Origin: Acidobacteriota bacterium
GTDB taxonomy: Bacteria; Acidobacteriota; Terriglobia; Terriglobales; Acidobacteriaceae
Length of the DNA: 64,000 nucleotides
Reading direction: 5' to 3'
NCBI GenBank assembly: GCA_021816455.1
Contig: JAKAXU010000010.1
Coordinates: 1-64,000 of the forward strand
Below the pieces are notes generated by a model. The model was not told the origin of the DNA and did not search any database. It saw nothing but the letters and a program-made list of their open reading frames with translations. This document shows, in pieces, positions 3,131-20,262 of the stretch (positions are counted from its first letter, which is position 1; the number at the start of each line of letters is the position of its first letter). Both the position numbers and the translations under genes were made by a program.

Positions 3131-5149
3131 TTATCGCAACGCGGCCATCCGTTTACTTGCGATAAGGTCGGCATCACACTTGGGGCAGTAAGCGTGTTCC
3201 CCATCCAGATAGCCGTGCCTGGGGCAGATGGAGAAGGTCGGCGTGACGGTGATGTAGGGCAAACGAAAGTTCTCCAGGGCACGGCGCACGAGCGTTTTGC
3301 ACGCCTTAGCCGACGAAATCCGCTCGCCCATGTAGAGATGGAGCACGGTGCCGCCGGTGTACTTGCGCTGCAACTCTTCCTGACGCTGCAACGCATCGAA
3401 TGGATCGTCGGTAAAGCCGACCGGGAGCTGGCTGGAGTTGGTGTAGTAAGGCTCATCCTTCGTGCCAGCCTGCAGAATGTCAGGGAAGCGTTTGCGATCT
3501 TCGCGGGCAAAGCGGTAGGTCGTGCCTTCGGCGGGTGTGGCCTCCAGGTTATACATGTGGCCTGTCTCTTCCTGGAACTTCACGATGCGGGCGCGCACAT
3601 GATCGAGGAAGCGCACGGCAAAGGCGTGGCCCCACTCTGACGTGATGTCGTGGGCGTCGCTGGTGAAGTTCCGGATCATTTCATTGATACCGTTCACGCC
3701 CAGCGTGGAGAAGAAGTTGCGCAACGAGCCGAGGTAGCGCTTCGTATACGGGAAGAGACCATTGTCCATGTGGCGCTGGATCACTTTGCGTTTGATCTCC
3801 AGGCTGTTGCGAGCGATCTCGAGCAACTCGTCGAGGCGCGCGAAGAGCGCTGTTTCGTCGCCGCGATGCAGATAGCCGAGACGCGCGCAGTTGAGCGTGA
3901 CCACGCCAACCGAGCCAGTCTGCTCAGCGCTGCCGAAGAGGCCATTGCCGCGCTTGAGCAGTTCGGTCAGATCGAGTTGCAGGCGGCAGCACATGGAGCG
4001 GACCATGTTCGGCTTCAGTTCGGAGTTGAGGAAATTCTGAAAATAGGGAAGGCCGTACTTGGCGGTCATCTCGAAGAGCTGTTCCGCGTTCTCGCTTTCC
4101 CAGGGAAAATCCGGAGTGATGTTATAGGTGGGGATGGGAAAGGTAAAGACACGTCCCTTGGCATCCCCCGCGGTCATGACCTCGATGTAGGCGCGGTTGA
4201 TCATGTCCATCTCGGGCTGCAATTCGCCGTAGCGGAAGCTCATGGTATGGCCGCCGATGACGGGAATCTGATCACGCAGATCCTCCGGGCAGGTCCAGTC
4301 AAAGGTCAGGTTGGTGAAGGGTGTCTGCGTGCCCCAGCGCGAGGGCACGTTGAGGTTATAGACCAACTCCTGAATGCACTGCCGCACCTCATCGTAGGAC
4401 AGGCTGTCCTTGCGGATGAAGGGTGCCATGTAGGTATCGAACGAGCTGAATGCCTGCGCGCCAGCCCACTCGTTCTGCAGGGTGCCGAGGAAGTTGACAA
4501 TCTGCCCAACGGCGCTCGAAAAGTGCTTTGGCGGCCCAGCTTCCACCTTGCCGGGAACACCGTTCAGCCCTTCGATCAGCAGTGTGCGCAACGACCATCC
4601 GGCACAGTAGCCAGCCAGCATGTCGAGGTCGTGGATGTGCAGGTCGCCTTCGCGATGGGCGCGTCCCGCCTCTGGCGCATACACATGCGAAAGCCAGTAG
4701 TTGGCCACCACTTTGCCGGAGATATTCAGGATCAGCCCGCCGAGCGAGTAGCCTTGGTTGGCGTTGGCGCTTACCCTCCAGTCGGCGCGCTCCAGGTACT
4801 CGTTCATTGAGGAGGCTACATCGACCAGCGTGCGCCGGTCACTGCGGAGACGCGTTCGCTGCTCGCGATAGACGATGTAGGCACGCGCGGTGGCAAAGTG
4901 ATTGGCGCTGATGAGCACCTGTTCCACCACGTCCTGCACCTGCTCGATGTGCGGAGCGCGGTCATGGAAGCGGTGGGCCAGAACTTTGAGCGTCTGAATG
5001 GTCAGCAACCGGGCTTCATCGTTATCGAATGCGCCAGTGGCCTTGCCAGCTCGCTCCAGAGCGGAGCAGATTTTGCCGCCATCGAATGGAGCGATTGCGC
5101 CGCTGCGCTTGATGACGGAACCAGGCGGAAGAATGGTGGAGACAGACAT
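3131..5149 (-). CDS. nrdD: Class III anaerobic ribonucleoside-triphosphate reductase, large chain
   Basis: This is a 672-residue oxygen-sensitive reductase making dNTPs from NTPs. Residues 12-100 form an ATP-cone (VIKRSGAIAPFDGGKI and later ATARAYIVYREQR), the allosteric domain. The catalytic barrel follows with SLGGLILNISGKVVANYW, HIHDLDM near 171-177 and the MCCRLQLDL active-site cysteines at 387-388. The C-terminus carries a zinc-finger-like CPRH...CPKC (C642, C655, C658) and then stops, without the usual RVxGY glycyl-radical tail, which is encoded by the next gene. A cobalamin riboswitch precedes it and a GGAAAGGGA ribosome site sits just before the ATG. Flanking IS remnants suggest the operon lies in a mobile or recently rearranged segment. 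Confidence 0.92.
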   Translation of the reverse strand: MSVSTILPPGSVIKRSGAIAPFDGGKICSALERAGKATGAFDNDEARLLTIQTLKVLAHRFHDRAPHIEQVQDVVEQVLISANHFATARAYIVYREQRTRLRSDRRTLVDVASSMNEYLERADWRVSANANQGYSLGGLILNISGKVVANYWLSHVYAPEAGRAHREGDLHIHDLDMLAGYCAGWSLRTLLIEGLNGVPGKVEAGPPKHFSSAVGQIVNFLGTLQNEWAGAQAFSSFDTYMAPFIRKDSLSYDEVRQCIQELVYNLNVPSRWGTQTPFTNLTFDWTCPEDLRDQIPVIGGHTMSFRYGELQPEMDMINRAYIEVMTAGDAKGRVFTFPIPTYNITPDFPWESENAEQLFEMTAKYGLPYFQNFLNSELKPNMVRSMCCRLQLDLTELLKRGNGLFGSAEQTGSVGVVTLNCARLGYLHRGDETALFARLDELLEIARNSLEIKRKVIQRHMDNGLFPYTKRYLGSLRNFFSTLGVNGINEMIRNFTSDAHDITSEWGHAFAVRFLDHVRARIVKFQEETGHMYNLEATPAEGTTYRFAREDRKRFPDILQAGTKDEPYYTNSSQLPVGFTDDPFDALQRQEELQRKYTGGTVLHLYMGERISSAKACKTLVRRALENFRLPYITVTPTFSICPRHGYLDGEHAYCPKCDADLIASKRMAALR

Positions 5150-6282: not shown

Positions 6283-6942
6283 TTATTCCTTCACGGTCAA
6301 GTCGGCGTTCGTTACCTGCGTCATAGGGCAGCAGTTGCAGGCAGGCTTGACTGCGGTGTCTTTCACCTCTCTCACCGTTATCGCCTGTGTCGTAGGTTGG
6401 GCTTTTTCGCTCCATGTCTTCAGCGTGTACTGGCCTGGAGGAACGTCTTTGATCGTGTAGTTGCCCTCCTTGTCGGTCAGCGCGAAGTAGGGCGTTGGCA
6501 CGACAACGATGTAACCGGACATTTCCGAGTGGGCTTTGCAGAGCAATGGAACGTCGCCCAGTTCATTGAAGGTGAATGACCTTACAATCCCTTGCGGCCA
6601 GGTGCCCATATTATGCGCCAGCTTACGATCATGATTGATGGCTGGCCAATAGACGTTGTGTTGAACTGGATCATCATTCAGAAAATTCACCGTGGTTCCC
6701 TTCACAATCACGAGCACATGCGGGATAAATGCCATCCGCAACTGGTCCATGATTGCATGTTGCACAGGTGGCAGGAATGTTTTACCAGGTACGCTGTCGA
6801 TGTAGACAACGATGTTCTCCGGAGAAGGCATTCCCTGCGCGGTGACCTTTCCTTTCACATCCCCTGCCCAGGCGAAATTTGCGAGAGATACTAGGGCGAG
6901 TAAAACGGTAGCCGATACAATGGTCTTCTTAGACTTGGTCAT
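6283..6942 (-). CDS. Exported cupredoxin-like protein with carboxypeptidase-regulatory-like domain
   Basis: The 219-residue product has a Sec signal (hydrophobic 8-25, cleavage after AWA) and then a cupredoxin-like domain. H95 in VQHNVYW plus C135, H138 and M141 in LLCKAHSEM give the His-Cys-His-Met pattern of a type 1 copper site. A small beta-sandwich follows (YFALTDKEGNYTIKDVPPGQ), resembling CarboxypepD_reg domains, and the C-terminus has CNCCPM. The start at 6942 is preferred because GGAG lies 8 bases upstream; an earlier ATG at 6969 is in frame. It is the last gene of the cytochrome island, so a periplasmic electron-carrier role is plausible. Copper loading is inferred from motif only. 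Confidence 0.75.
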   Translation of the reverse strand: MTKSKKTIVSATVLLALVSLANFAWAGDVKGKVTAQGMPSPENIVVYIDSVPGKTFLPPVQHAIMDQLRMAFIPHVLVIVKGTTVNFLNDDPVQHNVYWPAINHDRKLAHNMGTWPQGIVRSFTFNELGDVPLLCKAHSEMSGYIVVVPTPYFALTDKEGNYTIKDVPPGQYTLKTWSEKAQPTTQAITVREVKDTAVKPACNCCPMTQVTNADLTVKE

Positions 6943-7220
6943 TTTCATCTCTCCTTTTGAAGGAGCCATAATGGCTCGGACAGCCCCAAGCTTTGGGGTT
7001 TGATTGCGTGGTTGTTTCCGGAAGTTCCGACCATCAGATGCTCCACTTCTTCATCACTACGTCGACGACGAACCGCCACTCACGACTCTCTGTCCATACT
7101 TGGGAGTCCATCACAGGCCAAACTTTCTTAACTGGTGTGGTTGCCCAGACGCTCACGTTTATGAACCGACATCCCGACTTGCATCACCAGAAAGAATCTG
7201 CCCGGATCGGGGTCATGCTG

Positions 7221-8609
7221 CTACCAGCTCTCCTTCTTCTGTTGCTTCGACCAGAGAAAGTCCGCGATGTGGTGGATGTCCTCGTTGCTCAACACGCTCT
7301 TCCACGATGGCATGTAGAGCGGAGGAGCCGACCCCTTGGGATTATCCATAGGGGGCATCCTTCCGTCGCGGATGATACCGATGACTTCGTCCTTGGTGTA
7401 GTCGTCGGAGACGTGTAGCAGCGAGGGCACCTGTTCGCCCTGGGCGTTGGGGTTGGGTGCGCCGCCCTGGAGTTCCGTGCCGTGGCAGCCTGCGCATCCA
7501 AACCGCGCGAAGTCCTGTTTGCCGGCTTCGATGGCGGCATCTTCAGGAGTCAATGCATGGCCCTTGCGTGCCAGGATATCCTGCGCATCCTTTGGAGTAG
7601 CGGATGCAAGGAAAGCGACCAGCGCCTTGCGAGCATTGCTCTCAAGATCGTATTCCGGCATGGAACTTCCGGGATACACCAACTCCGGATTCACCAGTTG
7701 CTCGTCGAGCCATCCGTCCGAATGTCGCTTGGTCACGCCGAGCAGATCGGGCCCGACTTTGGCTCCAACTCCTCCAATGGCATGGCAGACGATACAATTC
7801 TTTTCTTCAAACAATTGCCGACCATATTCAGGGCTGGGGATCAGCCGCTCGCTGGAATAGTAACTCCCCATCTCTCCACTGGTAAGCGAAAGCATGTAGT
7901 AAGTAAGTGCGCGCGCCTGCTCCCTGGTGAAGTGGAAGTTCGGCATCGCCGAGCCGGGCGAGACTGCGTTCGGGGCCAGGAAGTGGCGCTCAAGCCATTG
8001 CGGAGATCGGTGATTCGCGCCTTCCTCTGTCAGGTCGGGGCCGATGCTTCCACCCACTCCGTTCAACTTGTGGCAACCGCGGCAGCCCTCGGTTTCAAAA
8101 AGATGGCGTCCCTCGGTCAGCTCTGGCACGCCAGGTACATCCCCCTCTTTGTGGCATCGACCGCAGGAAGCGCGGACGTAGTCGGCAGGCAGCAGCGGGG
8201 TTTGCCAGAAGGCCACGTTACCGTGCGCATCCTTCATGTCGGTGGCCAATCCCTGTCCGCCATGGCAGATGGTGCAGCCGAACTTGGAGGGAACGTGCGG
8301 TCCCAGACCGGCATGATAATGGAAAGGCCTTGGCGCATTCTTCATGGTGGGGTCTTCCACACCTAGATGGCATGTGGTGCAGCGGTCCACGCGCTGCAAG
8401 CCAGGGAGAACCACCTGATTGATCGCAAGCGGCGTGGCCAGAACAGCGGCCTTGCTGACTGCGTTCGGTTCTTCCTGCGCCTCAAGTTGAAGAAACTTTC
8501 GCTGATAGGGCTTCCACGATGGCGTGCTGGCCTGCCATTCGGCCACCAGGATAAGCACCAGCGCCAAAAGACTGAGTGCGAAGAAGAGTTGCTGTAGTTT
8601 ACGCTCCAT
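7221..8609 (-). CDS. Membrane-anchored hexaheme cytochrome c
   Basis: The 462-residue protein has one N-terminal membrane anchor (residues 8-23) and six CxxCH heme sites starting at C77, C112, C149, C176, C272 and C372. The last three sit in cytochrome-c-type modules with downstream GxxxGPDL and SxMP methionine-ligand motifs. Its ATG shares a base with the cytochrome b stop codon (TAATG), so it is translationally coupled and almost certainly the c-type subunit of the bc complex, where a monoheme or diheme protein is usual. It would receive electrons from the Rieske protein and pass them to periplasmic carriers, or the reverse. The start at 8609 is chosen over 8738 because it opens directly on the anchor. 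Confidence 0.85.
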   Translation of the reverse strand: MERKLQQLFFALSLLALVLILVAEWQASTPSWKPYQRKFLQLEAQEEPNAVSKAAVLATPLAINQVVLPGLQRVDRCTTCHLGVEDPTMKNAPRPFHYHAGLGPHVPSKFGCTICHGGQGLATDMKDAHGNVAFWQTPLLPADYVRASCGRCHKEGDVPGVPELTEGRHLFETEGCRGCHKLNGVGGSIGPDLTEEGANHRSPQWLERHFLAPNAVSPGSAMPNFHFTREQARALTYYMLSLTSGEMGSYYSSERLIPSPEYGRQLFEEKNCIVCHAIGGVGAKVGPDLLGVTKRHSDGWLDEQLVNPELVYPGSSMPEYDLESNARKALVAFLASATPKDAQDILARKGHALTPEDAAIEAGKQDFARFGCAGCHGTELQGGAPNPNAQGEQVPSLLHVSDDYTKDEVIGIIRDGRMPPMDNPKGSAPPLYMPSWKSVLSNEDIHHIADFLWSKQQKKESW

Positions 8610-9895
8610 TATTCTGGCCTCGCGACAACGTGTACCCAAGGTGGTACCCACGCCCAACCTGGTCCGCGGAAGAAGGTTCCCACAATGATCAGAAGGATGT
8701 TGGCAACGACAAAAAATGTGAACAACCAAATTGCCCACTTCCGGTCCCGCGGGCGACGGCTCGGGTTCCTGTCAATGTAGGGGATCGCAATCAGCGCGAT
8801 CACCATCAGGGCCGGTACTACCACGCCGCCTAACAAGGCCGAGTGGCTGACCAATTCCTGAAGGCCGAGGAAATACCACGGCGCTTTGGCGGGATTCGGG
8901 GTCACTGCCGGATTGGCCATTTCTTCAAGAGGCGCTTTGAAAAACAGCGAAATTGCCATGATGGTTGTTACGGTTGCCATCAGAGCCACCGCTTCGCGGA
9001 CAAAAGCGTATGGATATGAGAAAACCGTATCTTCTTCCTCTTCGGGGGTCACCGTTTCGAAGATAGGCTTGCCCGTGACGACTTCCATCAGTCCATACGT
9101 CTTGTCTTTCGACGCGGCTGTTACTTGCAACGGTGCGACCGCTGCAGGTGCGCCGATGGTGACCAGGGCCTCTGTCTTCTGTGGTTTCAACTTCCAGATC
9201 GGCCGTGAGAGTCCGCCGTCCTTGCGTACACGCCAGAAGTGAACAATGGTGAACAGGATCACGAGCGATGGCAGCACTGCCACATGGAGCACATAAAAAC
9301 GCAGCAGTGCTGCCTCGCCAACAGTATGACCGCCGAGTAACAACTCCCGGAGTTTGCCGCCGACCAATGGAGCGTAACTGCCGATGTTCGTTCCCACCGT
9401 GATCGCCCAGTAGGCGAGCTGATCCCATGGCAACAGATACCCGGTGAAGGAGAGTCCAAGCGTCAGTAACAGCAGCATCACACCGACCACCCAGTTGAAC
9501 TGGCGCGGTTTCTTGTAGGAACCGGTATAGAACACCCGGCACATGTGCAGAAAGACACAGACCACCATGGCGTGCGCTGCCCAGCGATGCATGTTGCGCA
9601 GAAACGACCCCATAAAGACGGCAAACTGGAGATCCTTCATGTCCTGGTATGCGGCTGGCGGGTAGGGCCGGTAGTAGCACATCAGTGCGATTCCAGTGGT
9701 CAGCAGAATCAAAAAGAGAAAGAAGGTAATGAAGCCCAAGTAAAACGAGTACTTGAACCGTAAGTTCTCTCTCTTCACTTTGGCCGGATGGATATGCAGC
9801 CACACATTGAGAAAGACCAGTTCGGACTTCCCTTTATCTGTGGACAGCGGATCCCGCCGCACGATCGATTGCCAGATTTCGCGAATCCATTTCAT
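8609..9895 (-). CDS. petB: Cytochrome b of a b6-type bc complex (fused with subunit IV region)
   Basis: This is a 428-residue integral membrane protein. The N-terminal four-helix part has heme ligands H103 and H117 on one helix and H204 and H219 on another; the 14 residues between the latter pair follow the b6 rather than mitochondrial spacing. The C-terminal part contains [14 protein letters not shown], the quinol-site region of subunit IV, so b6 and subunit IV functions are on one chain. It oxidises or reduces quinol with the Rieske protein encoded just upstream (2-base gap) and the hexaheme cytochrome just downstream. Roughly eight hydrophobic spans are visible, with a charged insert around 225-300. 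Confidence 0.9.
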
Positions 9896-9897
9896 CG

Positions 9898-10353
9898 TTA
9901 CACCATGAGCCGATACGTCGGTGGCACTACTTTGTCTTTGTCGACACGAAGCTGTCCATCGCGCGTCAGCGTTACCTCAAACCAGTTGAGGGACTGCGGC
10001 GCTGGCCCATGCAACACGGCGCCAGTTGGGGAAAACACGCTGCCGTGGCACGGACAATGGAACTCGCGGTCGTCCTGGAAGTACGCGACCGTGCATCCCA
10101 GGTGCGTGCAGACCGCGCTGGCCACAGCAAACCCTCTTTCACGGTCGCGGAACACGAAGATTTTTTCGTCCGCCAGGAAAGTGGGAGGGCCATAGGGAAA
10201 GTCCCCGGGGTTGCCAATCTTGAACGACTGCGGCGGCCCGTAAAAGACGCTCGGAACCAGGAAGCGGACCACTGCCCCAAAACTTACCCCGACCGCCGAA
10301 CAAAGCGCGGCCATGCCTGCAGTTCCCCAACTGAGAAAATTTCGACGATTCAT
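9898..10353 (-). CDS. petC: Rieske [2Fe-2S] protein of the bc complex
   Basis: The 151-residue protein begins [12 protein letters not shown], a twin-arginine signal-anchor, with a hydrophobic helix to about residue 34. The cluster motifs are CTHLGC (C82, H84, C87) and CPCHGS (C100, C102, H103), with GPAPQ after them as in true Rieske proteins. It carries electrons between quinol at cytochrome b and the c-type subunit. It lies 12 bases after the flavoprotein gene and 2 bases before cytochrome b in one operon. Confidence 0.93.
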
Positions 10354-10365
10354 ACCTGAGATCCC

Positions 10366-12204
10366 CTATTCAAAGACTTCCCGTTCCTGCTGTTCCAAAG
10401 CTTCCATGCTGATGGCTCCGGTTGGACAACGATCTGCGCATAGCCCGCAGCGAATACACTTTTCTTCGTTCTTGAGGATGGCCCCGGCATGGCCAGCTTT
10501 CAATTCGGCGGAGGGCATTCCGTAGCGATGTTGAATCAGGGCTTCGTATCGCTCGTCGCCGCTGACCTGTGTCAGGTCGACCAGGCGCAGGCATCTCTCC
10601 GGACACACGTCCACGCAACCGGCGCAGAGGATGCACTTCGATCCGTCAAAGATCGTGTTCACCTGGCACTTGAGGCAGCGAAGCCCTTCAGCGCGACCCT
10701 GTTGCTCGTCGAAGCCCAGTTCAACTTCGGCGATTCCAATGCGCCGGTTCGCCGCAAGCACAGGCATCTTCTGCCTAGGTGTGGCGAGAAAGCCGCGCGG
10801 CATTTTCCAGTCTGGCATAATGCGAAAGCGACTCAGCACGGTCTTGGTAGTTTTGCCGTTAAGATGCAAGTGAATCGACCGCGCCGCGCGGTGGCCATTC
10901 GCCACAGCCTCGACAAGCACTCGCGGTCCGAAGGCCACGTCCCCTCCGGCAAAGACGCCGGGAGCTGTGGTCATCAGATCCTCATCGATCTTAAGAGTTC
11001 CACGCGGCGTCACCTGGACTCCCTCTTCCCCGCTGAGGAATGAGAGATCTGCCTGCTGGCCGATGGCCAGGATCACGCTGTCGCAGGGAATGATTTTCTC
11101 TTCGTCGCTGAAGGCAGGATTGAAGCGGCCATTCTCATCGAAGACGGTGAGGCAGCGACGGACCTTGAGGCCGGTAACCACGCCATTTTCACCGATAATT
11201 TCCTTGGGCCCCCAACCGTTATCTACCTCAATGCCTTCCTGTTCGGCCTCATCCACCTCGCCTTTCCATGCAGGCATCTGAACGCGGGATTCGAGACTGA
11301 CCAGATCCACTTGTTCCGCACCGGAGCGCATTGCCATGCGGGCCGCGTCGAGAGCGGGTTGCAGATTCTTGGCCTCATCGCCGTTCAGGCCCGAATCAAC
11401 CGATTCCTGCACTAGACGCACGGCGGCACGGGCCACATCGATGGCCACGTTGCCGCCGCCCACAACCACGACGCGCTTGCCCAGTTCAATCTCGAAGCCG
11501 AGGTTGACATTGATCAGAAAGTCGATGCCGTTGTACACACCCGCGAGATGCGCTCCCGGAATATTCAGTTCGCGGCCCTTGTTAAGCCCAGTGGATAGCA
11601 GGACCGCATCGCTCTTCGACCGCAGTTCCGCGAAGGAGATGTCGCGCCCCAGGGTAACGCGGGTATGCAGCGTCACGCCCATGGCGAGGATGTTGTCCAC
11701 TTCCATCTTGATGATTTCCCGCGGCAACCGAAATTGCGGGATGCCCAGATACAGCATCCCTCCAGGGACCGGAGCGGACTCGTACACATCGACCGTGTAG
11801 CCCAACAGAGCCAGATCGTGGGCGCAGGTGAGACCACAGACACCCGCCCCAACAATAGCGACGCGCTTGCCGCGCCGGGCCGGGGGAGGCAGTTTTTTTC
11901 GTGCCGGATCATGTCCGCTGCCCAGGTTGTGTCGGTCCGTGGCGTAACGCTTCAGCGCGCAGATGGCGATCGGTTCGTCGATCTTGCCGCGCCGACAATT
12001 GTCTTCACAAGGATGGGCACAGATACGTCCCAGCACATACGCGAAAGGATTTGGAGCGCGTGCCAGCAGGTATGCTTCTTCATCCTTTGAAATCCCGATG
12101 GCCTGGACGTACCGCCCGCACTCCGTATGGATGGGGCAGGCAGTGCGGCAGGGAATATTCCGATCGAAGTATTCCTGGTCCGGGACCGTGACAAAATAAC
12201 TCAT
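10366..12204 (-). CDS. GltD-like FAD/NAD(P)H oxidoreductase with C-terminal ferredoxin domain
   Basis: The 612-residue protein opens with the glutamate-synthase small-subunit Fe-S region (CRTACP, CGRYVQAI, CAHPCEDNCRRG). It has an FAD Rossmann motif VAIVGAGVCGLTCAHDLA, a second nucleotide fold VVVVGGGNVAIDVARAAV for NAD(P)H, and a GGD FAD segment. The C-terminus adds two [4Fe-4S] motifs, CILCAGCVDVCPERC and CIRCGLCADRCPTGA. No glutamate synthase large subunit is nearby, so glutamate synthesis is unlikely. Position immediately upstream of Rieske and cytochrome b suggests it links NAD(P)H to the quinone or bc machinery, perhaps for reverse electron flow. The start at 12204 (GGTGG site) is used rather than 12336. 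Confidence 0.85.
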   Translation of the reverse strand: MSYFVTVPDQEYFDRNIPCRTACPIHTECGRYVQAIGISKDEEAYLLARAPNPFAYVLGRICAHPCEDNCRRGKIDEPIAICALKRYATDRHNLGSGHDPARKKLPPPARRGKRVAIVGAGVCGLTCAHDLALLGYTVDVYESAPVPGGMLYLGIPQFRLPREIIKMEVDNILAMGVTLHTRVTLGRDISFAELRSKSDAVLLSTGLNKGRELNIPGAHLAGVYNGIDFLINVNLGFEIELGKRVVVVGGGNVAIDVARAAVRLVQESVDSGLNGDEAKNLQPALDAARMAMRSGAEQVDLVSLESRVQMPAWKGEVDEAEQEGIEVDNGWGPKEIIGENGVVTGLKVRRCLTVFDENGRFNPAFSDEEKIIPCDSVILAIGQQADLSFLSGEEGVQVTPRGTLKIDEDLMTTAPGVFAGGDVAFGPRVLVEAVANGHRAARSIHLHLNGKTTKTVLSRFRIMPDWKMPRGFLATPRQKMPVLAANRRIGIAEVELGFDEQQGRAEGLRCLKCQVNTIFDGSKCILCAGCVDVCPERCLRLVDLTQVSGDERYEALIQHRYGMPSAELKAGHAGAILKNEEKCIRCGLCADRCPTGAISMEALEQQEREVFE

Positions 12205-12356
12205 GCGTCCACCATTCTGATGAGTTTGCAAAATCACTGTATTCCGAGAACGCATTCCACGTATAGTGCCGACTGAAATCGCCCTCCAGCGAACCGATGC
12301 AGTGTCCGCTGGAGAGTGAAGCTGACTCCACAGCACCTTGAAAAGTTACTCTACGG

Positions 12357-12761
12357 CTACTGTTGGGCCTTCAGCTTTTCGATCTCCTCATCGCTCAGGG
12401 ACTTGGAGAACGCGGACGGGTTCTTGTCTTTGCGGTTCACCTGGTCGTACACCAGAAACTCATAGATCTCTTTTCCCTGGCTGTTGCTGATCCCCGAGTT
12501 TGGCTTGTGCATCATGCGCTTTACGTAACGTTCCCACTCTGCCTGGGTCATGGTTGTGTTGATAGGGCGCGCAATGGTATGGCACGAGGAGCACTTGCTG
12601 ACAAACAGCGAGTACGCCTTCTGTTGCGCCGGCGGATAGGTCGAGACATTGATCTTGTCAGGTCCCTTGTCCTGCGGGAGGGTTACGTTGCCGTTCTGAG
12701 CGACGAGCAACAGAGGAACGGAACAAGCTGCGAGTGCCATCACGAGAATCATCTTGTGCAT
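12357..12761 (-). CDS. Small periplasmic monoheme cytochrome c
   Basis: The 134-residue protein has a Sec signal (residues 1-21) and a single CSSCH heme motif near 57-61. A methionine-rich stretch after it (ERYVKRMMHKPNSGIS) could supply the distal ligand. A strong GGAG ribosome site is 8 bases before the ATG. It has a similar-sized neighbour with the same layout at 12832-13200, including a shared VSTYP/VSSYP segment before the heme, so the pair probably arose by duplication. The likely role is shuttling electrons between the outer-membrane cytochrome and the bc complex; its redox partner cannot be read from sequence. Confidence 0.85.
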   Translation of the reverse strand: MHKMILVMALAACSVPLLLVAQNGNVTLPQDKGPDKINVSTYPPAQQKAYSLFVSKCSSCHTIARPINTTMTQAEWERYVKRMMHKPNSGISNSQGKEIYEFLVYDQVNRKDKNPSAFSKSLSDEEIEKLKAQQ

Positions 12762-12831
12762 TTCAGTCTCTCCTTACCACATGTACCGGATATTTGTCCT
12801 GAAGTTCTTGTTGGTCTTGTCTACCCGACAA

Positions 12832-13200
12832 CTACCACTTATCTTTCGGCAAATGGGTCTGGTAGTAATTGATGAAGTCGATGATTTGCTCTGCCTCGCG
12901 GTCGTTAAAATCCGCAGCTGGCTTGGCTTGCATCACATGGACCCAATGCTCGGCCGTGGCAGGAGTCTGTGTAGTGCGCAATGCCCGATCCAGGGTATGG
13001 CATTCGGAACAGGTATATTTGAACGTTTTGTATCCCTGCCGGATATTGGCCGGATACGAAGAGACATCGATGGGCACGTCCTTTTTATTCCCGGTGAAGA
13101 AGCCCCCGTATTGGGCATGTGCCGTGCCGAGTAAACCCGCCACGAACAAAAGCCCCGCCATGCGCCCTGCCATACACCACGAAAATGTTCTATGTTGCAT
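12832..13200 (-). CDS. Small periplasmic monoheme cytochrome c (paralogue)
   Basis: The 122-residue protein has a signal peptide ending near AHA, a CSECH heme site, and the pattern VSSYPANIRQGYKTFKYTC that parallels the next gene downstream. A Met occurs in WVHVMQAKP as a candidate axial ligand, as in its neighbour. The ATG at 13200 is chosen because GGAGG lies 7 bases upstream; the in-frame ATG at 13215 would put that site inside the gene. It lies 30 bases after the outer-membrane cytochrome gene in the same direction, so the two are probably co-transcribed. Confidence 0.85.
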   Translation of the reverse strand: MQHRTFSWCMAGRMAGLLFVAGLLGTAHAQYGGFFTGNKKDVPIDVSSYPANIRQGYKTFKYTCSECHTLDRALRTTQTPATAEHWVHVMQAKPAADFNDREAEQIIDFINYYQTHLPKDKW

Positions 13201-13230
13201 GATTTTCCTCCACATGATGGCTGCACTCCC

Positions 13231-14529
13231 TTAGAAATTGAACTCGACGTCGGACATGATCGTCCGGCCGGAACTGCCCACGCCTGCGATTGGGTCGCGG
13301 CCATGGAGATTACTGTACGAAAGCCGTCCGATAATGTTGCCCGACGGCGTGAGGGTGCGTTGCAGGCCGAAGCTCGGTTGCTCCTGGCTGACCCCTCCGA
13401 TGCCACCCACGATACGCTGGTTCAAGCGGTCATAGCGCACTGTGGCCGCCATACCCCGGTAAAAGAAGTAATCCAATTCGCCGTAGTAGTCCTTGGAAGT
13501 GAAGCTGCTGGCAGGTCCGGGTTGACTGATCTCGTAGCCATCGTGGTCGTACATAAAACCACCCAGAATGTTGAGCTTGTTATGGAATGCCATGTAGTTG
13601 GCAAAAATCCCATTTCTGTGTATTACCGGATAGAAAGTGAACTGGTTCGGGGCACCGAAATTCTGTATCTGGTTCTTTTTCCCGTAGTAACTCAGGAATG
13701 AGACGCCGCTCTCCGGCGCATACCACCAATCGAGGTCCACATAGACATCCTTGGCATTTCTGGCATCCGGACCCGTGATCGTACTGCCGTCCGCATGGTC
13801 TCCATTGCTTACGCTCAACGATGCGCCCAGGATTTGCTTATATCTAGGGAGCGCCCAGGTATATCCAGCACGAAGCCCTACCATGTGCTGGTCCAGAACA
13901 AAGTTATTCGGATCGGTGTACTCCCACATCAATGGCGCCGCGGGTAAGAGGCTTTCCGTGTTTGCGGCCGTAGTTCCATTGGCGCCCATCACATGCATGT
14001 CGCCGCCTTGAATATACCAACTGCTTTTTGCTGTGCCGCCGACGTAGCCGAAGTATCCAACTGCGACGCTCGGGCTGGTGTCACCCCCGGCAACCAGGTT
14101 GATCTGCGAATAGTAAAAGAAATTCGTGTCTGGAATCCAGCCAGCCAGGTACGCATTCCAGGTACCCAACTGGAAAGAGGACGTGGAGGTTGGGGGGGTG
14201 CCATCCTGGGTATTTCGTTGCACCGCAAAGTCTAAATCCGCCACTGCAAAGGCCGCGTTATTGCCTAGCGTCCACATCGGCTCTTGTGCGACCAGGTCTG
14301 CGATACGCGGCGACAGTTCCCCTTTTTGCAGCGCGGGCGGCAAATGGAACCCCAGCCGCTTGAACATATAACCCTCCTCGTTCAGGACGGGGGGAATGGT
14401 ATGACAGGCAAAGCAGCGAAGCTTATATCGGCGGGCAAACGCTGGAATTGCGTTGCCGGGCTGAGGTAGCAGCAGGACAAAGCCGAACACCAACAGAATG
14501 ACTTTCAGACCAGATCTCCAGAGTTTCAT
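13231..14529 (-). CDS. Cyc2-like outer-membrane monoheme cytochrome / beta-barrel fusion
   Basis: The 432-residue product has a signal peptide (to about residue 27, GNA) then PAFARRYKLRCFACHTIPPV, with one heme site at C39-H43. The remainder is about 380 residues of alternating aromatic and Gly-rich strands ending in Phe (VEFNF), the signature of an outer-membrane beta-barrel. This cytochrome-plus-porin arrangement, with a 'FAR...C..CH' start, resembles Cyc2, the fused cytochrome-porin implicated in extracellular Fe(II) oxidation. The family also contains acidobacterial proteins of unknown role, so substrate is open. Start 14529 fits a GGAG site; a sigma54 promoter lies directly upstream. It is the first gene of the cytochrome operon. 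Confidence 0.8.
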   Translation of the reverse strand: MKLWRSGLKVILLVFGFVLLLPQPGNAIPAFARRYKLRCFACHTIPPVLNEEGYMFKRLGFHLPPALQKGELSPRIADLVAQEPMWTLGNNAAFAVADLDFAVQRNTQDGTPPTSTSSFQLGTWNAYLAGWIPDTNFFYYSQINLVAGGDTSPSVAVGYFGYVGGTAKSSWYIQGGDMHVMGANGTTAANTESLLPAAPLMWEYTDPNNFVLDQHMVGLRAGYTWALPRYKQILGASLSVSNGDHADGSTITGPDARNAKDVYVDLDWWYAPESGVSFLSYYGKKNQIQNFGAPNQFTFYPVIHRNGIFANYMAFHNKLNILGGFMYDHDGYEISQPGPASSFTSKDYYGELDYFFYRGMAATVRYDRLNQRIVGGIGGVSQEQPSFGLQRTLTPSGNIIGRLSYSNLHGRDPIAGVGSSGRTIMSDVEFNF

Positions 14530-14553
14530 GTGCGGGTCTCCTGCATTCCCACT

Positions 14554-14569
14554 AGCACGTCTGGAGCCA
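14554..14569 (-). promoter_or_regulatory. Candidate sigma54 (-24/-12) promoter of the cytochrome operon
   Basis: The minus strand reads TGGCTCCAGACGTGCT: GG and GC separated by exactly 10 bases, close to the TGGCACG-N4-TTGCW consensus. Transcription would begin near 14543, leaving a leader of about 14 bases that still holds the GGAG ribosome site of the Cyc2-like gene. A sigma54-dependent activator gene lies immediately upstream, which strengthens the assignment. Confidence 0.65.
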
Positions 14570-14614
14570 GAGTTAATATTCTTTCTTGACAACAACTTAC
14601 GCCGGATAAGTCAG

Positions 14615-14632
14615 ATGAAATGAGGATTTCAT
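14615..14632. promoter_or_regulatory. Candidate activator-binding dyad upstream of the sigma54 promoter
   Basis: A perfect inverted repeat, ATGAAAT-GAGG-ATTTCAT, is centred about 80 bases upstream of the predicted start of transcription, a usual place for an enhancer site of an NtrC-type activator. It overlaps the last codon and stop of the response regulator gene. It could instead be a weak hairpin at the end of that gene's mRNA. Confidence 0.4.
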
Positions 14633-16029
14633 TCCCCAGTTTCCATCGCGATATGGGGAGCGGATTCCCCAGGCTGCTGCGCTCTCTCCCGCCTGAGGAG
14701 AGTGTAAAACGTCTTCCGGTCCACCCCGGCTTCTCGCGCGGCAGCACTCACGTTGCCGCCGCAACGGGCCAGCACGGCTTGTGCATAGGAGCTTTCGAAG
14801 CTGGCCAGATACTGTTCCCTGGCATCCTTCCAGGGAAGAACGGCAAGACTGCTCACTCCCTCTACCTTCGGAGAATCCTCTTCCAGATCCTCCGGCCCAA
14901 GAACACCGCCGGGATGCAAGGCGGTCAGCCGTTCCATGACGTTCTTCAGTTGGCGCACGTTGCCGGGCCAGCGCTCCCGAAGCAGCGCCTCATAGAATTG
15001 CGGCGAGGCCGAAAGACTCTTGCCATAGAGGCGGGAAAATCGTTCCAGAAAAAAGCGCGCCAGGTGTTGGATGTCCTCTGGCCGTTCCCGCAAAGGCGGC
15101 AGTTTCACTGTGACCACGCTCAGACGGTAATAGAGTTCTTCGCGAAAGGTTCCGGCCTTGATCTTTTCCATCAAATTCTGGTTGGTGGCGCACAAAATGC
15201 GGCATTCCACGCGCACTGGTGTTAACCCGCCCAGCCGCCGCAATACTCGCTCCTCAACAAAGCGAAACAGGCGCGTTTGCAGCTCCACCCCAAGGTCTCC
15301 GATTTCATCCAGAAACAGCGTGCCGCCGTCTGCAGACTCGATCAGCCCTTTCTTGGTGCGTTCCGCGCCGGTAAACGCGCCGCGCTCATATCCGAACAGT
15401 TCGCTCTCGATCAGAGATCCCGGCATGGCGCTACACTCCACAGGCACAAATGGGCCATCCTTGCGTCGGCTCTGGTTGTGGACAAACCGGGCCATGACCT
15501 CCTTGCCCGTACCGCTCTCTCCCAGGATCATTACCGTTGCATCGGTGGCCGCCGCCCTGCGGCACTTTTCCATCTGCTCGAGCATTGCGGCGCTGCGGCT
15601 CCTTGCCGCATCCGCCTCGCCGAGGGCTTCCAGACGGCCTTTCAGTGTTTCGACTTCGCGCTCCAGCGTGGCGTGGGAAAGTGCGCGCCTGACCACCAGC
15701 AGAAGATCCTCGCGATTGAAAGGCTTCTGTAGATAGTCGAAGGCGCCGTTACGCATCGCCAGCACCGCACCCTCCACCGATCCGAAGGCGGTGAGGAAGA
15801 CGATGGGAAGTCCTGGATGGACTTCATGCAGACGGGCAAAGACTTCTTCCCCTGACATCCCCGGCATGCGTACGTCCAGCAGAACCAGGTCGGGCGGGTT
15901 GGCCAGGCATTCGGCCAGCCCTTTGGCGGGGTCCACAAAAACTGAGACCGTGGTGCCGGGCAAACGCAGCATCCGCTGGATGTTTTCACCCAGCGCGGCT
16001 TCATCGTCGATGACAAGAATGCGGCTCAC
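14629..16029 (-). CDS. NtrC-family sigma54-dependent response regulator
   Basis: The 466-residue protein has three domains in order. A receiver (1-120) has the phospho-acceptor D52 in LLDVRMPG and the switch residues T80 and K102. An AAA+ domain (about 145-380) has Walker A GESGTGKE and the sigma54-contacting GAFTGA loop. A Fis-type helix-turn-helix is at the end (CGGNVSAAAREAGVDRKTFY). It activates sigma54 promoters by ATP hydrolysis when phosphorylated. Its ATG overlaps the stop of the sensor kinase gene (ATGA), and the sigma54 promoter with a dyad lies just downstream before the Cyc2-like gene, making that operon its likely target. Confidence 0.93.
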   Translation of the reverse strand: MSRILVIDDEAALGENIQRMLRLPGTTVSVFVDPAKGLAECLANPPDLVLLDVRMPGMSGEEVFARLHEVHPGLPIVFLTAFGSVEGAVLAMRNGAFDYLQKPFNREDLLLVVRRALSHATLEREVETLKGRLEALGEADAARSRSAAMLEQMEKCRRAAATDATVMILGESGTGKEVMARFVHNQSRRKDGPFVPVECSAMPGSLIESELFGYERGAFTGAERTKKGLIESADGGTLFLDEIGDLGVELQTRLFRFVEERVLRRLGGLTPVRVECRILCATNQNLMEKIKAGTFREELYYRLSVVTVKLPPLRERPEDIQHLARFFLERFSRLYGKSLSASPQFYEALLRERWPGNVRQLKNVMERLTALHPGGVLGPEDLEEDSPKVEGVSSLAVLPWKDAREQYLASFESSYAQAVLARCGGNVSAAAREAGVDRKTFYTLLRRERAQQPGESAPHIAMETGE

Positions 16030-17099
16030 TCTGTCGTTCCTCCGGCGAACCAGTGATACGGCTGGCCACGGGTGAATCGCGCCGGAGGTAACTCGATCAC
16101 GAAGCTGGCGCCGCCGCCGTTCCTTGGCTCATAGCGAATTCGGCCATCATACATATCCAACAGGCTGGCCGCCAGAAACAGCCCCAAACCCAGCCGCTCC
16201 CGTCCCGTACTTTGCGAAATGAATGGTTCAAAGAGGTGTCCCCGGATACTCTCCGGCACGCCCGGCCCGTTGTCTTCGATTTTGATAACCACTTTAGCCC
16301 CCGCCGTGCGATAAGGCTCAAGACGCACCCATATCACGGCCTCGTCCTGCCCTTTCAGCGCTTCAAGCGCATTGCTCAACAAGCCGCGGACGACTTCACC
16401 TACCACATGTTCGGGCACATCCACACGCGGTGCTTCAGCGATCTCCTCCACCAACCGCGCTCCCTGACTTTCGGCTGAAGGTCGGAATGCCTGCAGTGCT
16501 TCCTCCAAGGCCTTCTGCGGGATCGAGGTATCGAAAATTTCTCCTCCTCGCTCGCGTCGCAGCGCCTGTAACAGGGTACTTGCAATGTTACCCATGTAGC
16601 GCGACTCTTTAAGCATCTGCTCAAGATCGGCGCAAAGGGCAGCATCTCCTTTGCGTTCGTCGAGCAGCACTTCAATGCGGCCCGCCACAATCGCCAGCGG
16701 GTTGTTGAACTCGTGCATGAAGCCAGCCGTGAACTGGCCCAGGAGCGTAAGTTGATGGGACAGCCGTGCCTGCCGGTCGGCAGCTTGCAACTCCTCCCGC
16801 AGTCGGGATGTGCGATACCGCACCGTCTCCAACTGTAACTTCAGTTTCGCTGCCTCTTCCTCCGAGTTTGTCGCGTAGGCAAGCAGGCGGCTTCTCTGAC
16901 GCCGCATATAGAGTAACGCTGGAATCGGTGCAATCAGGACGGCAAGCGTTGAACAAAGAGTCTTAGCAAATGCGGAGGGGTGAATCCAATACATAATGCC
17001 GAACAGGGGAAGCACCCAGGCTCCGCTCACCCACAGCACAAGAGGATTCCGCCGCCGGGGGCGATTCAGGTCACCGCCTTCTCCCACGTTGCTTGGCAT
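16026..17099 (-). CDS. Membrane sensor histidine kinase
   Basis: The roughly 357-residue kinase has two closely spaced membrane helices (about 19-38 and 45-64), a coiled-coil stretch (80-115), an H-box with phospho-His H129 in GFMHEFNNPLA, and an HATPase domain with N-box LLSNALEA, G1 DNGPGVP and G2 LGLGLFLA. The periplasmic loop is only a few residues, so it likely senses membrane or quinone status rather than a bound ligand. It overlaps the response regulator by 4 bases. An upstream in-frame TTG at 17138 is an alternative start. It follows the GH106 gene by about 54 bases and may share its transcript or have an internal promoter. Confidence 0.9.
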   Translation of the reverse strand: MPSNVGEGGDLNRPRRRNPLVLWVSGAWVLPLFGIMYWIHPSAFAKTLCSTLAVLIAPIPALLYMRRQRSRLLAYATNSEEEAAKLKLQLETVRYRTSRLREELQAADRQARLSHQLTLLGQFTAGFMHEFNNPLAIVAGRIEVLLDERKGDAALCADLEQMLKESRYMGNIASTLLQALRRERGGEIFDTSIPQKALEEALQAFRPSAESQGARLVEEIAEAPRVDVPEHVVGEVVRGLLSNALEALKGQDEAVIWVRLEPYRTAGAKVVIKIEDNGPGVPESIRGHLFEPFISQSTGRERLGLGLFLAASLLDMYDGRIRYEPRNGGGASFVIELPPARFTRGQPYHWFAGGTTE

Positions 17100-17153
17100 A
17101 TCGCTCAAGTGTAGTGCTTCGATACGGTCGGACCGCAAGCGTATCGAGCGGCT

Positions 17154-20033
17154 TCAGCGCTTCGAGATACTTGCGCTCTGAAGCACGATGAGTGTGATCG
17201 GGCCGAAGAGTCCGGAGGGAATCGGCTGGAGATGATCCATATCCTGCGGCTCGAAGAGTGTGCCATAGCGAGCGCGCAATAGCCGCAGTTCGGGCTGCGC
17301 CTGGCCGGCCATCCCGTTGATAGCGGTGTTGGCCACCACGATGCGAAGGTGGTTGACGCCGGGATGGATCCACTGCGTCACCTCCAGCTGCCACGGCGGG
17401 CGCCAGAGCACGCCAGCATCGTGCCCGTTGACGAAGAGTTGTGCCACCTCTCCGACCGGCGGAGCGAGATACGCCTTCATGTTGTGCTCGCCCGGCGGCG
17501 ATGGCAGCGGCAATCGATGACCGCGACCAAAATCGAGCATCAGGCGCGTTCCGGAGACGACGAATTGCGAAGGCACATCAACATCTCGGGCATATTCCGC
17601 CTTGCCGGAAAAGTAGCGAGTCGCCTCATCGTCGGTCCAGGAGCGAAGCGTCCTGTAGCTTTGCGTGAGGCCAAGGCTATCGAAGGTGACCTTCCAGTTG
17701 CGGGAGAGATCGACGCGCCCGCTTTCTTCCGGCTCCGTTGTCCCGCGCTGAGCTACACTCTTGTCCTCCTGGTCGGAAAAGTAGACAATCCGGGAATCAT
17801 ACGCGTTCAGATGCAGCGGAATGGATCCCGTCCCGGCGAGGCGACTGATCTCGCCGGTGTACGGATTCCACAGCTCGGCGTAAGGCGAGCGATCGCGAAA
17901 GGAAGCCGTTAAATCCATGGTCTGATTGGAGGTGTTGGCCAGGAAATAGAGATTGCCCGAACGCAGTCGACGATGAATCCAGCCGATGGCCGAGCTTCCT
18001 GCGGAGGCCGTGAAGCGTACATCCGGTGGAAGCAGCGCGGCAAGCGTGGGGCCGAGCTGGGATTCATCGGAGAGGAAGCGCGCTGTAGGAATTGCTCCGG
18101 AGAAGAGTTCATGCGAGATAGCCTGGATGTGCGCGCTTTGCATCTTCGCATCGATTAGGCCCGGAGCAGTGGTCGGCATGCGGCGCGTGGCAAGGACGAC
18201 CCCGCCGCGTCGCGCAAAGGCAAGGATGCGTTCGTACGCAGCGACAGGTATGCGATCCACACCGGGCAGAATGAGTGCGCGATAGGGGATGCCGACCTGA
18301 TCAAGTGCCTGGGCATCGATGAAGTCGAGATTGAAACCAGCGTCGAGAATGCGGCCCAACAGTTGCGTGCCCAGTCGCTTGTTCATCTGTTCGTCGATCG
18401 TCACGTTGGAGCCGGAGAGATCGAAGCCCAGTGCCGAGGTCGGAGAGTTTCCGCGCCGTGCGGTAGCGTGGAAGCTTGCCCATGCATCGTCTTCCGGCAA
18501 CAGCAGCGCCACATCGTTGGCGGGTGATCCCCGACGCAGCGCCCAGCTTACGCGCTGCAGATATGCGGAAAGTTCGGGCATCGCGAAGAACCACGGATTG
18601 TGTGCATTGAGGGCTGCTGCGGCATACATGCGCCAGCCGGGTTCGCCGACCTGCGGTGGCGAGTAAGGCCATCCATGCCCGACCAGTTGGTTGATGCCCT
18701 GTACAAAATGCAGATCGGCTTCGGCCTTCATATCCAGTGGCGTAGCGCGAAATGCGGGTGAATCGAGCCAGGTCCAGGTCTCCGATGAGATGACGTTGCG
18801 ATGAAAAAGATGCCCGGCCGAAGCAGCCCAGCGGGTATCGGAAAACTCACGCCACATGCGAAATGTAGCTTTGCCTTCGCCCTCCGGTAGATCAACGAGC
18901 GCGTTGCTGGCCAGATTGACAGGAGGAAACCCATACACCTGCGCCCGCAGTTTTGTTCGATGAGCATGCGCCCAGGAGTCAAGCGGTTCCAGATAATTAG
19001 CATCCACCAGCTCCGTCAGCGTCTCGCCCCAGTCATGGCGAATGGCCGCTGTTTGCGGGCCGATGTCAGTGACCAGCGCCAGCAGATACGGTTTCAGATC
19101 GTAGCCGCGTCTGCGCTCGAACTCGGCCAGCATCTGCGGCGTCCAGTCCGAGGCGTAAATCTCAAGACTGTCGCTGAAGACAGCATCGAGTGGGCGCGAG
19201 CCAAAAGCCTCAATGAGGCGTTGGCCCACAATGTTCAGATGCTGCATGAGCGCGGCGCGGTCATAGTGGTCGAGAACAAAACCCTCGGCTCCGACGGCGG
19301 GCCGTTTCACGGTCATTCCGGTGCGGCTGGCCAGGAATGCGATGAGGATGCGGTTGCGCGAGGATGCCGCGAAGCGATAGCGTCCTGTGAACGGCGGAGA
19401 AAGCGGTTGCGCTTCTGCAAGCGCGGCAGGCGCTGCATCCGCATCGACCAGGAATGCTTCGATGCGCGATTCTCCAGCCTGGAACGCCGGGGCGATGGCC
19501 TCGTCCACGCCGGCAGGGACAACGATCCGCTCCACGCGCAGGCCTCCGGCGGCGAGCGTGACAGGGATCTCCGGGCCGCCATACGGCCAGCCGCTGCCCA
19601 GCGTCAGATCGACGCGCATGCCGAGAGAGCGCGCCGTCTGCGCGGCAAAGCGTAGCGCCTCCACATGCTGCGGTGAAGCATAGGCAAAGTTCCGAAATCC
19701 GGTCTGCGGATCGTCCAAAGACTGGGCATAGAGACTGGTCAGCTCAACGCCTCCGATGCCGGCTGCCTTCATCTGCCCAAGCTCACGTTGAATCTCCTCG
19801 TGCGTAACGGCCGGACCGAACCACCACCAGCGCATCATGATCCGGCTTTCTGCCGGAGGATGCAGGAAACCGTTGCGAAGATCGACGTCAGCAGGAGCCG
19901 TGGGAGGCGGCTCAATCTGTTTCGCCATGCTTTGTCCCGGAGCGGATAGACCGTGCAGCAGAAACAGCACCGAAAACGCAGCGCAAGTCCAGCTCAGGCA
20001 ACTCGCAAATCGGAGAATCGTTCGTAAGTGCAT
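17154..20033 (-). CDS. Exported GH106-type alpha-L-rhamnosidase
   Basis: The 959-residue protein has a signal peptide (hydrophobic 8-28) and the start of GH106 enzymes (FLHPPAESRIMMRWWWFGPAV with TSLYAQ shortly after). A central TIM-barrel region with FSDSLEIYASDW may hold a catalytic acid. The C-terminal jelly-roll sugar-binding region reads QLFVNGHDAGVLWRPPWQLE. GH106 enzymes remove terminal L-rhamnose from pectin (rhamnogalacturonan) or related glycans. ATG 20033 has GGGAG 8 bases upstream. It diverges from a second, longer GH106-type gene across a 229-base gap, so the two may share a promoter region and a substrate. Confidence 0.8.
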   Translation of the reverse strand: MHLRTILRFASCLSWTCAAFSVLFLLHGLSAPGQSMAKQIEPPPTAPADVDLRNGFLHPPAESRIMMRWWWFGPAVTHEEIQRELGQMKAAGIGGVELTSLYAQSLDDPQTGFRNFAYASPQHVEALRFAAQTARSLGMRVDLTLGSGWPYGGPEIPVTLAAGGLRVERIVVPAGVDEAIAPAFQAGESRIEAFLVDADAAPAALAEAQPLSPPFTGRYRFAASSRNRILIAFLASRTGMTVKRPAVGAEGFVLDHYDRAALMQHLNIVGQRLIEAFGSRPLDAVFSDSLEIYASDWTPQMLAEFERRRGYDLKPYLLALVTDIGPQTAAIRHDWGETLTELVDANYLEPLDSWAHAHRTKLRAQVYGFPPVNLASNALVDLPEGEGKATFRMWREFSDTRWAASAGHLFHRNVISSETWTWLDSPAFRATPLDMKAEADLHFVQGINQLVGHGWPYSPPQVGEPGWRMYAAAALNAHNPWFFAMPELSAYLQRVSWALRRGSPANDVALLLPEDDAWASFHATARRGNSPTSALGFDLSGSNVTIDEQMNKRLGTQLLGRILDAGFNLDFIDAQALDQVGIPYRALILPGVDRIPVAAYERILAFARRGGVVLATRRMPTTAPGLIDAKMQSAHIQAISHELFSGAIPTARFLSDESQLGPTLAALLPPDVRFTASAGSSAIGWIHRRLRSGNLYFLANTSNQTMDLTASFRDRSPYAELWNPYTGEISRLAGTGSIPLHLNAYDSRIVYFSDQEDKSVAQRGTTEPEESGRVDLSRNWKVTFDSLGLTQSYRTLRSWTDDEATRYFSGKAEYARDVDVPSQFVVSGTRLMLDFGRGHRLPLPSPPGEHNMKAYLAPPVGEVAQLFVNGHDAGVLWRPPWQLEVTQWIHPGVNHLRIVVANTAINGMAGQAQPELRLLRARYGTLFEPQDMDHLQPIPSGLFGPITLIVLQSASISKR

Positions 20034-20262
20034 CGGTTCAGCTCCCGTTAGTCGCCGGAATTCGCTCCAGGCTCGAGGCAATTCTAACGGTCGCGACCTG
20101 TGAGAATAAATTCAAAACAGGAATTTTTCTTCTTTCGGATTTCATGGAATTCGTGATAAGGTTGCTGGCGCATTCAGATCAGCTCTTCGACCGGCGCAGA
20201 AAGTGACCGCACGAAGAAGTTAGCAGAGAGGAATGCTTATCTCAGATTGAAGAGAGCTGACG

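Follow-up and report, generated by a model that had tools for sequence, protein, structure and literature searches.

Does a run of respiratory genes on one strand of an Acidobacteriota genome encode a single electron route between the outer membrane and the inside of the cell, or have unrelated genes come to lie side by side? The run occupies 6283-17138 of the minus strand in a 64,000 nucleotide (nt) stretch (GenBank assembly GCA_021816455.1, contig JAKAXU010000010.1, positions 1 to 64,000), here called the window. It consists of a kinase-regulator pair, a one-heme porin, two monoheme c-type cytochromes, a flavoprotein, a Rieske protein, a cytochrome b, a hexaheme c-type cytochrome and a cupredoxin. 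What is new in it is the joining of a Cyc2-like heme porin with a Rieske/cytochrome b complex linked to nicotinamide adenine dinucleotide (phosphate), NAD(P); each kind is already known. From the predicted proteins we favour, on balance, a reading in which this one operon encodes a conduit that links the outer membrane with the pools of quinone and NAD(P), the NAD(P)-linked complex being part of it.

Gene order and its conservation

All genes named in a model-made annotation of the window (the original prediction) were found, on the minus strand throughout, and Pfam and NCBIfam domains concur. Its coordinates were mostly right, but the hexaheme gene starts at 8609 and not 8738, the flavoprotein gene at 12204 and not 12336, and the kinase open reading frame (ORF) extends to 17138. 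From the kinase to the cupredoxin the intergenic gaps are -4, 99, 15, 70, 152, 12, 2, -1 and 251 nt, and the ATG of the hexaheme gene at 8609 overlaps the cytochrome b stop codon.

When genomes were scanned with eight aligned porins, 78 loci emerged; 58 of them hold a porin that is full-length by the cut-off used. All 58 fall under Acidobacteriota-type record titles, and bog, fen or palsa appears in 14 of the 78 titles. Isolate names such as DBS, DX and FK may point to acid mines as a further origin. Nine of the 58 are too short to judge, and 49 could be assessed. The flavoprotein, Rieske, cytochrome b and hexaheme genes stand beside the porin in 27 of these, with the same strand and order in every one. 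The linkage proposed in the original prediction, which joins a Cyc2-like porin to carriers, to a bc-type complex and to a flavoprotein of the NAD(P) type, is therefore kept, and the search for the same gene order in other Acidobacteriota, where unlinked genes would have spoken against it, found the order common to all 27 full loci. Six of the 49 loci have two or three of the four bc-complex genes, two (L128, L129) have only the histidine kinase, response regulator, porin, first monoheme cytochrome (c1) and hexaheme cytochrome, 13 are stand-alone cassettes of a porin and a diheme c-type cytochrome, and one is of another kind. Within the window's own family, a heme-porin match lies no more than 6 kilobases (kb) from a flavoprotein match below 1e-170 in 12 of 12 sampled genomes.

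A second, sister operon is spread over the phylum and runs heme porin, cupredoxin, flavoprotein, Rieske, b6, subunit IV, octaheme c, monoheme protein. Near its end several loci (e.g. L064:17200-18459) carry a recurrent protein of about 420 amino acids (aa) with no Pfam or NCBIfam match. Thirty-six further Acidobacteriota loci, covering all operon versions, were chosen for a close flavoprotein match. Rieske genes are present in 36 of them, cytochrome b in 35, a c-type protein with at least five hemes in 35 and a cupredoxin in 22. A heme porin was recognised by regular expression in 21, and two more (L066, L070) have one that the expression missed; in five (L060-L062, L065, L067) the sequence on the porin side is short or was not found. 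The porin matches in Geobacteraceae, Desulfuromonadaceae, Planctomycetota and Bacteroidota lie mostly at the heme end. In three Geobacteraceae/Desulfuromonadaceae loci (L136, L138, L143) the heme porin adjoins a ten-heme protein, and L136 and L138 also have a monoheme cytochrome resembling the second one of the window (c2).

Separate respiratory genes might have become adjacent by chance, and the 13 cassettes, in which porin and bc genes live apart, agree with such an accident. It is contradicted by the conserved order and strand of the 27 full loci, together with tight spacing and a promoter-like site at a fixed position (see below). Accidental linkage was rejected on these grounds as extremely improbable.

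The heme porin

The porin gene (13231-14529, minus strand; AIPAFARRYKLRCFACHTIPPVL) was classified from motif counts, alignments and profile matches. Published Cyc2 criteria comprise an AXPXFAR[Q/K][T/Y] motif, CXXCH, PXL, a minimum length of 365 aa and a barrel of 16 strands, modelled on an OprO/OprP-like phosphate-porin fold (PMC8406198). Every one of 53 aligned porins, the window's among them, has one CXXCH, a PXL four residues past it and at least 365 aa. The strict motif occurs in 20 of the 53 and the relaxed form A.P.[FY]AR in all. Having FARRY in place of FAR[Q/K][T/Y], the window porin was rejected as a strict Cyc2, and as AIPAFARRY is one residue off the strict motif the protein is filed as Cyc2-like. 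It is, on this predicted make-up, a Cyc2-like heme porin with most of the published Cyc2 features.

Database searches gave little on the barrel itself. The window porin matched no Pfam or NCBIfam family at E values up to 1 and no PDB entry at values up to 5, and porin profiles searched against Pfam, NCBIfam and PDB returned chance-level matches only, including one meaningless PDB match at E 1. Two of the 53 relatives match OMP_b-brl weakly (best E 0.32). The C-terminal residue is F or W in 52 of the 53 and Y in the remaining one; outer-membrane barrels generally end in such an aromatic residue. The porin profile matches the sister-operon porins at 99.8% over 354 columns, and one of 15 sister-operon porins matches the phosphate porin family Porin_O_P (1.5e-4). 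The C-termini and the profile links to the sister porins speak indirectly for a barrel.

The same Porin_O_P match would suit another function, in which the porin would act as a channel for small molecules, with its heme put to some other use, and the complex would draw on a periplasmic sulfur or organic donor through SorB-like cytochromes. Both c1 and c2 point the same way, matching the SorB cytochromes of sulfite dehydrogenase weakly (23.6 and 20 bits against a cut-off of 93), as does ExtI, a porin free of heme motifs beside the ExtOPQS bc complex, which affects selenite and tellurite reduction (PMC5877670). However, the porin alignment shows strong conservation at the heme site and on either side of it, and different porin lineages in the cluster keep the site, although the regular expression used to find them requires it. 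No catalytic subunit resembling sulfite dehydrogenase stood out in the conserved set, in which no profile search was aimed at one. We consider the channel function unlikely.

The Rieske/cytochrome b complex and its carriers

The Rieske [2Fe-2S] protein (9898-10353, minus strand) was identified by domain search (1.8e-13, Pfam/NCBIfam). The top two of its 79 PDB matches are 9rk4 (85 bits) and 9rk3 (70 bits), the next reaching 59 bits. These two are the anammox Rieske proteins Kuste4569 and Kustd1480, whose complexes hold a hexa- or octaheme c-type cytochrome and an NAD(P) oxidoreductase (PMC12954380). Judged by these matches, the window protein is kin to the Rieske proteins of anammox NAD(P)-linked Rieske/cytochrome b complexes, and its nearest counterpart of solved structure does not come from an iron oxidiser. 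The cytochrome b (8609-9895, minus strand) joins a b6-like N-terminal region and a subunit IV-like C-terminal region in one protein, as seen in Pfam, NCBIfam and an alignment with b6 (domain match 9.7e-46). Its best NCBIfam match is ExtP, at 280.2 bits against a curated equivalog cut-off of 290, and identification of the complex with Geobacter ext was rejected on this score. Cys35 of b6, where heme c-N is attached, aligns with Tyr52 of the window protein, and none of 49 aligned rows has a Cys there. Because this Cys is lacking, the complex is regarded as related to the anammox type and not identical with it.

The flavoprotein (10366-12204, minus strand) is an Nfn/GltD-like oxidoreductase for flavin adenine dinucleotide (FAD) and NAD(P), with predicted iron-sulfur sites at its N- and C-terminus, as judged from domain and PDB searches and conserved Cys residues. 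Pyr_redox_2 (1.5e-33) and Fer4 domains are present, and the best PDB match is 9bov/9bp5 (NfnABC) at 324 bits, compared with 180 for the glutamate synthase small chain. Sixteen Cys are near-invariant over the 69 rows of the family. The anammox study identifies 9bp5 as NfnABC and counts it among the structures related to the NAD(P) subunit of those complexes (PMC12954380). The flavoprotein is kin to Nfn-type enzymes, with several putative [4Fe-4S] sites.

The hexaheme cytochrome (7221-8609, minus strand; 462 aa) has six CXXCH motifs and, by eye, an N-terminal hydrophobic segment. Many relatives of this c-type protein have six or eight such motifs and some have five or seven. Of the two monoheme cytochromes, c1 (12357-12761, minus strand) is a general operon member across relatives, while c2 (12832-13215, minus strand) is kin to the diheme cytochrome of the stand-alone porin cassettes. 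The last gene (6283-6969, minus strand) encodes a cupredoxin with a carboxypeptidase-regulatory domain (CarboxypepD_reg). Its Copper-bind match (3.6e-4) passes the gathering cut-off narrowly, at 21.4 against 21.2 bits, and on that borderline score the copper-protein candidate of the original prediction stands. By tblastn, relatives of it occur in four of the 78 loci: in the same operon in L075, in the sister operon in L140, and elsewhere in L137 and L149. The cupredoxin is the loosest member of the window's operon version and a core gene of the sister version.

Regulation from the porin onward

Upstream of the porin, domain search identified a histidine kinase (HisKA and HATPase_c; 16026-17138, minus strand) and the gene it pairs with, an NtrC-type sigma-54 response regulator (receiver, AAA and Fis helix-turn-helix domains; 14629-16029, minus strand). 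Among the 27 full operon loci the regulator precedes the porin in every one and the kinase in 25. A putative sigma-54 -24/-12 promoter, TGGCTCCAGACGTGCT, lies at 14554-14569 (minus strand), 40 nt ahead of the porin ATG. In 27 of 32 operon loci such a site (GG-N10-GC) falls 38-46 nt ahead of the porin start. This range was chosen after the sites had been inspected, and the start is the first base matched by tblastn, which may differ from the exact ATG. Five of the 32 have no site at that distance, and in L073 there is one at 53 nt. The same site in the same position was seen before 19 of 643 other ORF starts and in 172 of 5000 random stretches. Across the whole window the loose sigma-54 pattern is no more frequent than chance, so the weight rests on the fixed position. 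GAFTGA is found in 40 of the 45 best regulator matches across loci. Taken with the fixed promoter-like site, this regulator family indicates that the operon is probably driven by sigma-54 from the porin onward, and probably by its own two-component pair.

Probable exchange of the porin within the operon

In the porin tree four window-type operon porins group with 16 cassette porins (SH-aLRT support 100). The 33 other rows labelled as operon stand apart from that group (support 100); this label was the default, and L112, where no bc genes were found, and L113, which is too short, bear it unproven. In the flavoprotein tree the window sits among ordinary operons, adjoining L131, and its flavoprotein is 93% identical to that of L131 compared with 40% for the porin. 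The four loci with window-type porins, a group defined after inspection of the porin tree, do not form one clade in the flavoprotein tree (approximately unbiased test, p-AU 5e-6). At least seven changes of porin lineage are needed on the flavoprotein tree, counted with porin types taken from the porin tree and locus number instead of the regular expression, and with 16 of the 69 flavoprotein rows excluded for want of a porin label (L066 and L070 among them). Both are quick trees supported by the Shimodaira-Hasegawa-like approximate likelihood ratio test (SH-aLRT) only, and the flavoprotein tree came with a long-branch warning.

Several porin lineages occupy the same cluster, and the strict motif is found in 31 of 52 labelled loci. 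ARQT-type porins occur in six loci of the same cluster kind, three with the strict motif and three with Y for F. With differing porin and flavoprotein trees and several porin lineages in one cluster, the porin looks like a replaceable part. The window's own copy looks like one swapped in from a stand-alone porin-cytochrome cassette, and cytochrome c2, which accompanies it, probably came along with it, as the gene order suggests.

Other heme-porin sets and neighbouring genes

Two further heme-porin sets are found in the window's own genome. Contig C64 (L175:3749-8351) has an intact Cyc2 with the strict motif, AVPSFARQTGLSCNVCH, after which come a Rieske gene and a cytochrome b-tetraheme fusion. 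This set is repeated in four of 20 loci fetched (L197, L202, L205, L206), and L203 has the porin and the fusion gene. Contig C98 (L174:2997-9118) has a third kind, made up of a porin, a cupredoxin, a hexaheme c-type cytochrome, a monoheme protein and an uncharacterised 427-aa protein; no Rieske, cytochrome b or flavoprotein gene was seen within the fetched stretch. The window itself also contains a broken second Cyc2-type heme porin (95-1253, minus strand), consisting of an N-terminal piece, ASFSRQTGLACNVCHTTFPELTPF, an in-frame stop, a later frame change and an early end. Over 249 aa the C-terminal piece shares 47% identity with the intact copy on C64, and the broken gene adjoins an Rrf2-family regulator at 1254-1694. 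The break could be due to decay or to an assembly error.

Beyond the cupredoxin by 1.1 kb lie genes for the class III anaerobic ribonucleotide reductase NrdD and its activase NrdG2 (2203-5149, minus strand); NrdD/NrdG were not found in the 78 porin loci. On the kinase side are two large rhamnosidase-like proteins (17154-20081, minus strand; 20263-23646, plus strand), which score under the equivalog cut-off and over that of the jelly-roll domain. The two rhamnosidase-like proteins suggest a polymer-using heterotroph.

Proposed mechanism and direction of electron flow

In the conduit that we favour, the porin would hold one heme at the periplasmic mouth of the barrel and exchange electrons with a small couple outside the cell, soluble Fe(II)/Fe(III) being the most likely one. 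Electrons would be shuttled on to the hexaheme cytochrome and the Rieske protein by the monoheme cytochromes or, where the operon is of the sister type, by the cupredoxin. Cytochrome b would couple these carriers to quinone and pass on to NAD(P) through the Nfn-like flavoprotein on the cytoplasmic side.

Several observations weigh against this. The R that replaces Q/K in AIPAFARRY costs the porin the strict Cyc2 motif, its profile likeness to ARQT-type porins is confined to 105 columns at the heme end, and a crude strand model gave z 4.7 over 30 shuffles, yet about 20 strands for real and shuffled sequences alike. No heme porin was found in eight of the 36 flavoprotein-chosen loci (L158, L160-162, L166-168, L170), which hold the flavoprotein, Rieske and mostly cytochrome b; the complex can therefore exist without the porin. 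Conversely, no flavoprotein was found in L057, L118 and L124, each with porin, c1, Rieske, cytochrome b and hexaheme cytochrome, so that the NAD(P) part is not obligatory. RuBisCO, finally, had no match in the window's own genome (86.5% complete), and among 30 genomes picked for heme-porin sets (24 with the flavoprotein operon, 6 with other heme-porin sets only) it was found in five, one of them with a fragment, all among the 24.

As to direction, we lean slightly towards inward use, in which Fe(II) oxidation would feed oxidases and top up quinol and NAD(P)H. The lean is due to two points: characterised Cyc2 proteins are Fe(II) oxidases (PMC8406198), and heme-copper oxidase genes occur in all 30 heme-porin genomes, so that an oxygen end is available; the window's own genome has three such matches. 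Both points stand against an outward route, in which the complex would oxidise quinol from heterotrophic metabolism. Electrons would then exit by way of the hexaheme and monoheme cytochromes and the heme porin, reaching Fe(III) or some other acceptor when oxygen is low; were the complex to bifurcate in the manner suggested for anammox complexes, the second electron would go into NAD(P)H. Such outward flow would fit the lack of RuBisCO matches in the window's own genome and in 25 of the 30, the nearby class III ribonucleotide reductase, the flanking rhamnosidase-type genes and the three Geobacteraceae/Desulfuromonadaceae loci where a similar heme porin adjoins a ten-heme protein. According to a review, electrons may also take Cyc2/bc1 routes in the outward sense, towards Fe(III); models of that kind exist, and acidophilic Acidobacteria are reported to reduce Fe(III) (PMC8790237). 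The anammox model requires a high-potential acceptor (PMC12954380). We treat the outward route as a tentative possibility.

A more specific version of the conduit, which we think quite unlikely, would make the outside iron couple the high-potential partner of a bifurcating or confurcating Rieske/cytochrome b complex. In the bifurcating version, quinol oxidation would send one electron through the heme porin to outside Fe(III) and the other to NAD(P)+; in the reverse, confurcating version, Fe(II) and NAD(P)H would jointly reduce quinone without proton-motive force.

Relation to known systems

The window porin resembles the Cyc2 fused cytochrome-porins of Acidithiobacillus and Mariprofundus in its hydrophobic start, the single CXXCH near the N-terminus, an AxPxFAR-type motif, the PXL spacing, a length of about 430 aa and a putative barrel. 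It differs from them in FARRY, in having an NAD(P)-type Rieske/b complex as operon partner, and in a block without an oxidase gene (PMC8406198). With the anammox complexes Kuste4569-4574 and Kustd1480-1485 the window shares the closest Rieske in PDB, a b6-like cytochrome b, a hexa- or octaheme c-type cytochrome by heme count and a predicted NAD(P) oxidoreductase kin to Nfn/Bfu enzymes with several iron-sulfur sites. Unlike these complexes, the window has a fused cytochrome b with Tyr52 in place of the heme c-N Cys, adds an outer-membrane heme porin and monoheme shuttles, and belongs to another phylum (PMC12954380).

The Geobacter cluster extHIJKLMNOPQS likewise brings together a porin, a Rieske protein (ExtO), a cytochrome b (ExtP, to which the window protein scores 280 bits), ExtQ and the multiheme ExtS. 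The window cytochrome b is nevertheless under the ExtP cut-off, ExtI is without a heme motif, and, unlike the window operon, ext has rhodanese and selenoprotein cytochromes and no flavoprotein named (PMC5877670). The rus and pet operons of Acidithiobacillus ferrooxidans also place Cyc2, a periplasmic cytochrome or copper protein and bc1 in one chain. Unlike the window, that chain spans two operons with an oxidase, and NADH is made via the NADH-1 complex and not by a complex-linked flavoprotein (PMC10654088, PMC8790237).

Cyc2 homologues have already been reported in Acidobacteria (PMC9671151, PMC10654088). No description of the operon was found in the titles, abstract starts and selected passages covered (including PMC5877670, PMC6137239, PMC9040806 and PMC11748539), and within the same literature the earlier claim that the combination is undescribed for Acidobacteriota agrees with what we found. 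Since both components are known and no account of the operon was found, we regard it as a combination joining two known kinds.

Implications for Acidobacteriota

Acidobacteriota are widespread in soils and peat, where a role in iron cycling has mostly been deduced from individual marker genes. The window offers a testable unit in place of an isolated marker, since gene order, promoter position and phylogeny link its candidate metal-facing porin to a single defined complex. With porins exchanged while the rest of the operon stays stable, the outer-membrane part may be a replaceable adapter. The operon also suggests a possible high-potential partner for NAD(P)-linked Rieske/cytochrome b complexes; for one anammox complex, Kustd1480-1485, the paper itself states that none has yet been proposed (PMC12954380). 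If the outside iron couple did play that role, the result would be a one-operon electron-bifurcation machine driven by outside metal, with interchangeable heme porins as its metal-facing part. As it stands, the predicted gene set suggests a wired route between outside metal ions and internal reducing power in Acidobacteriota.

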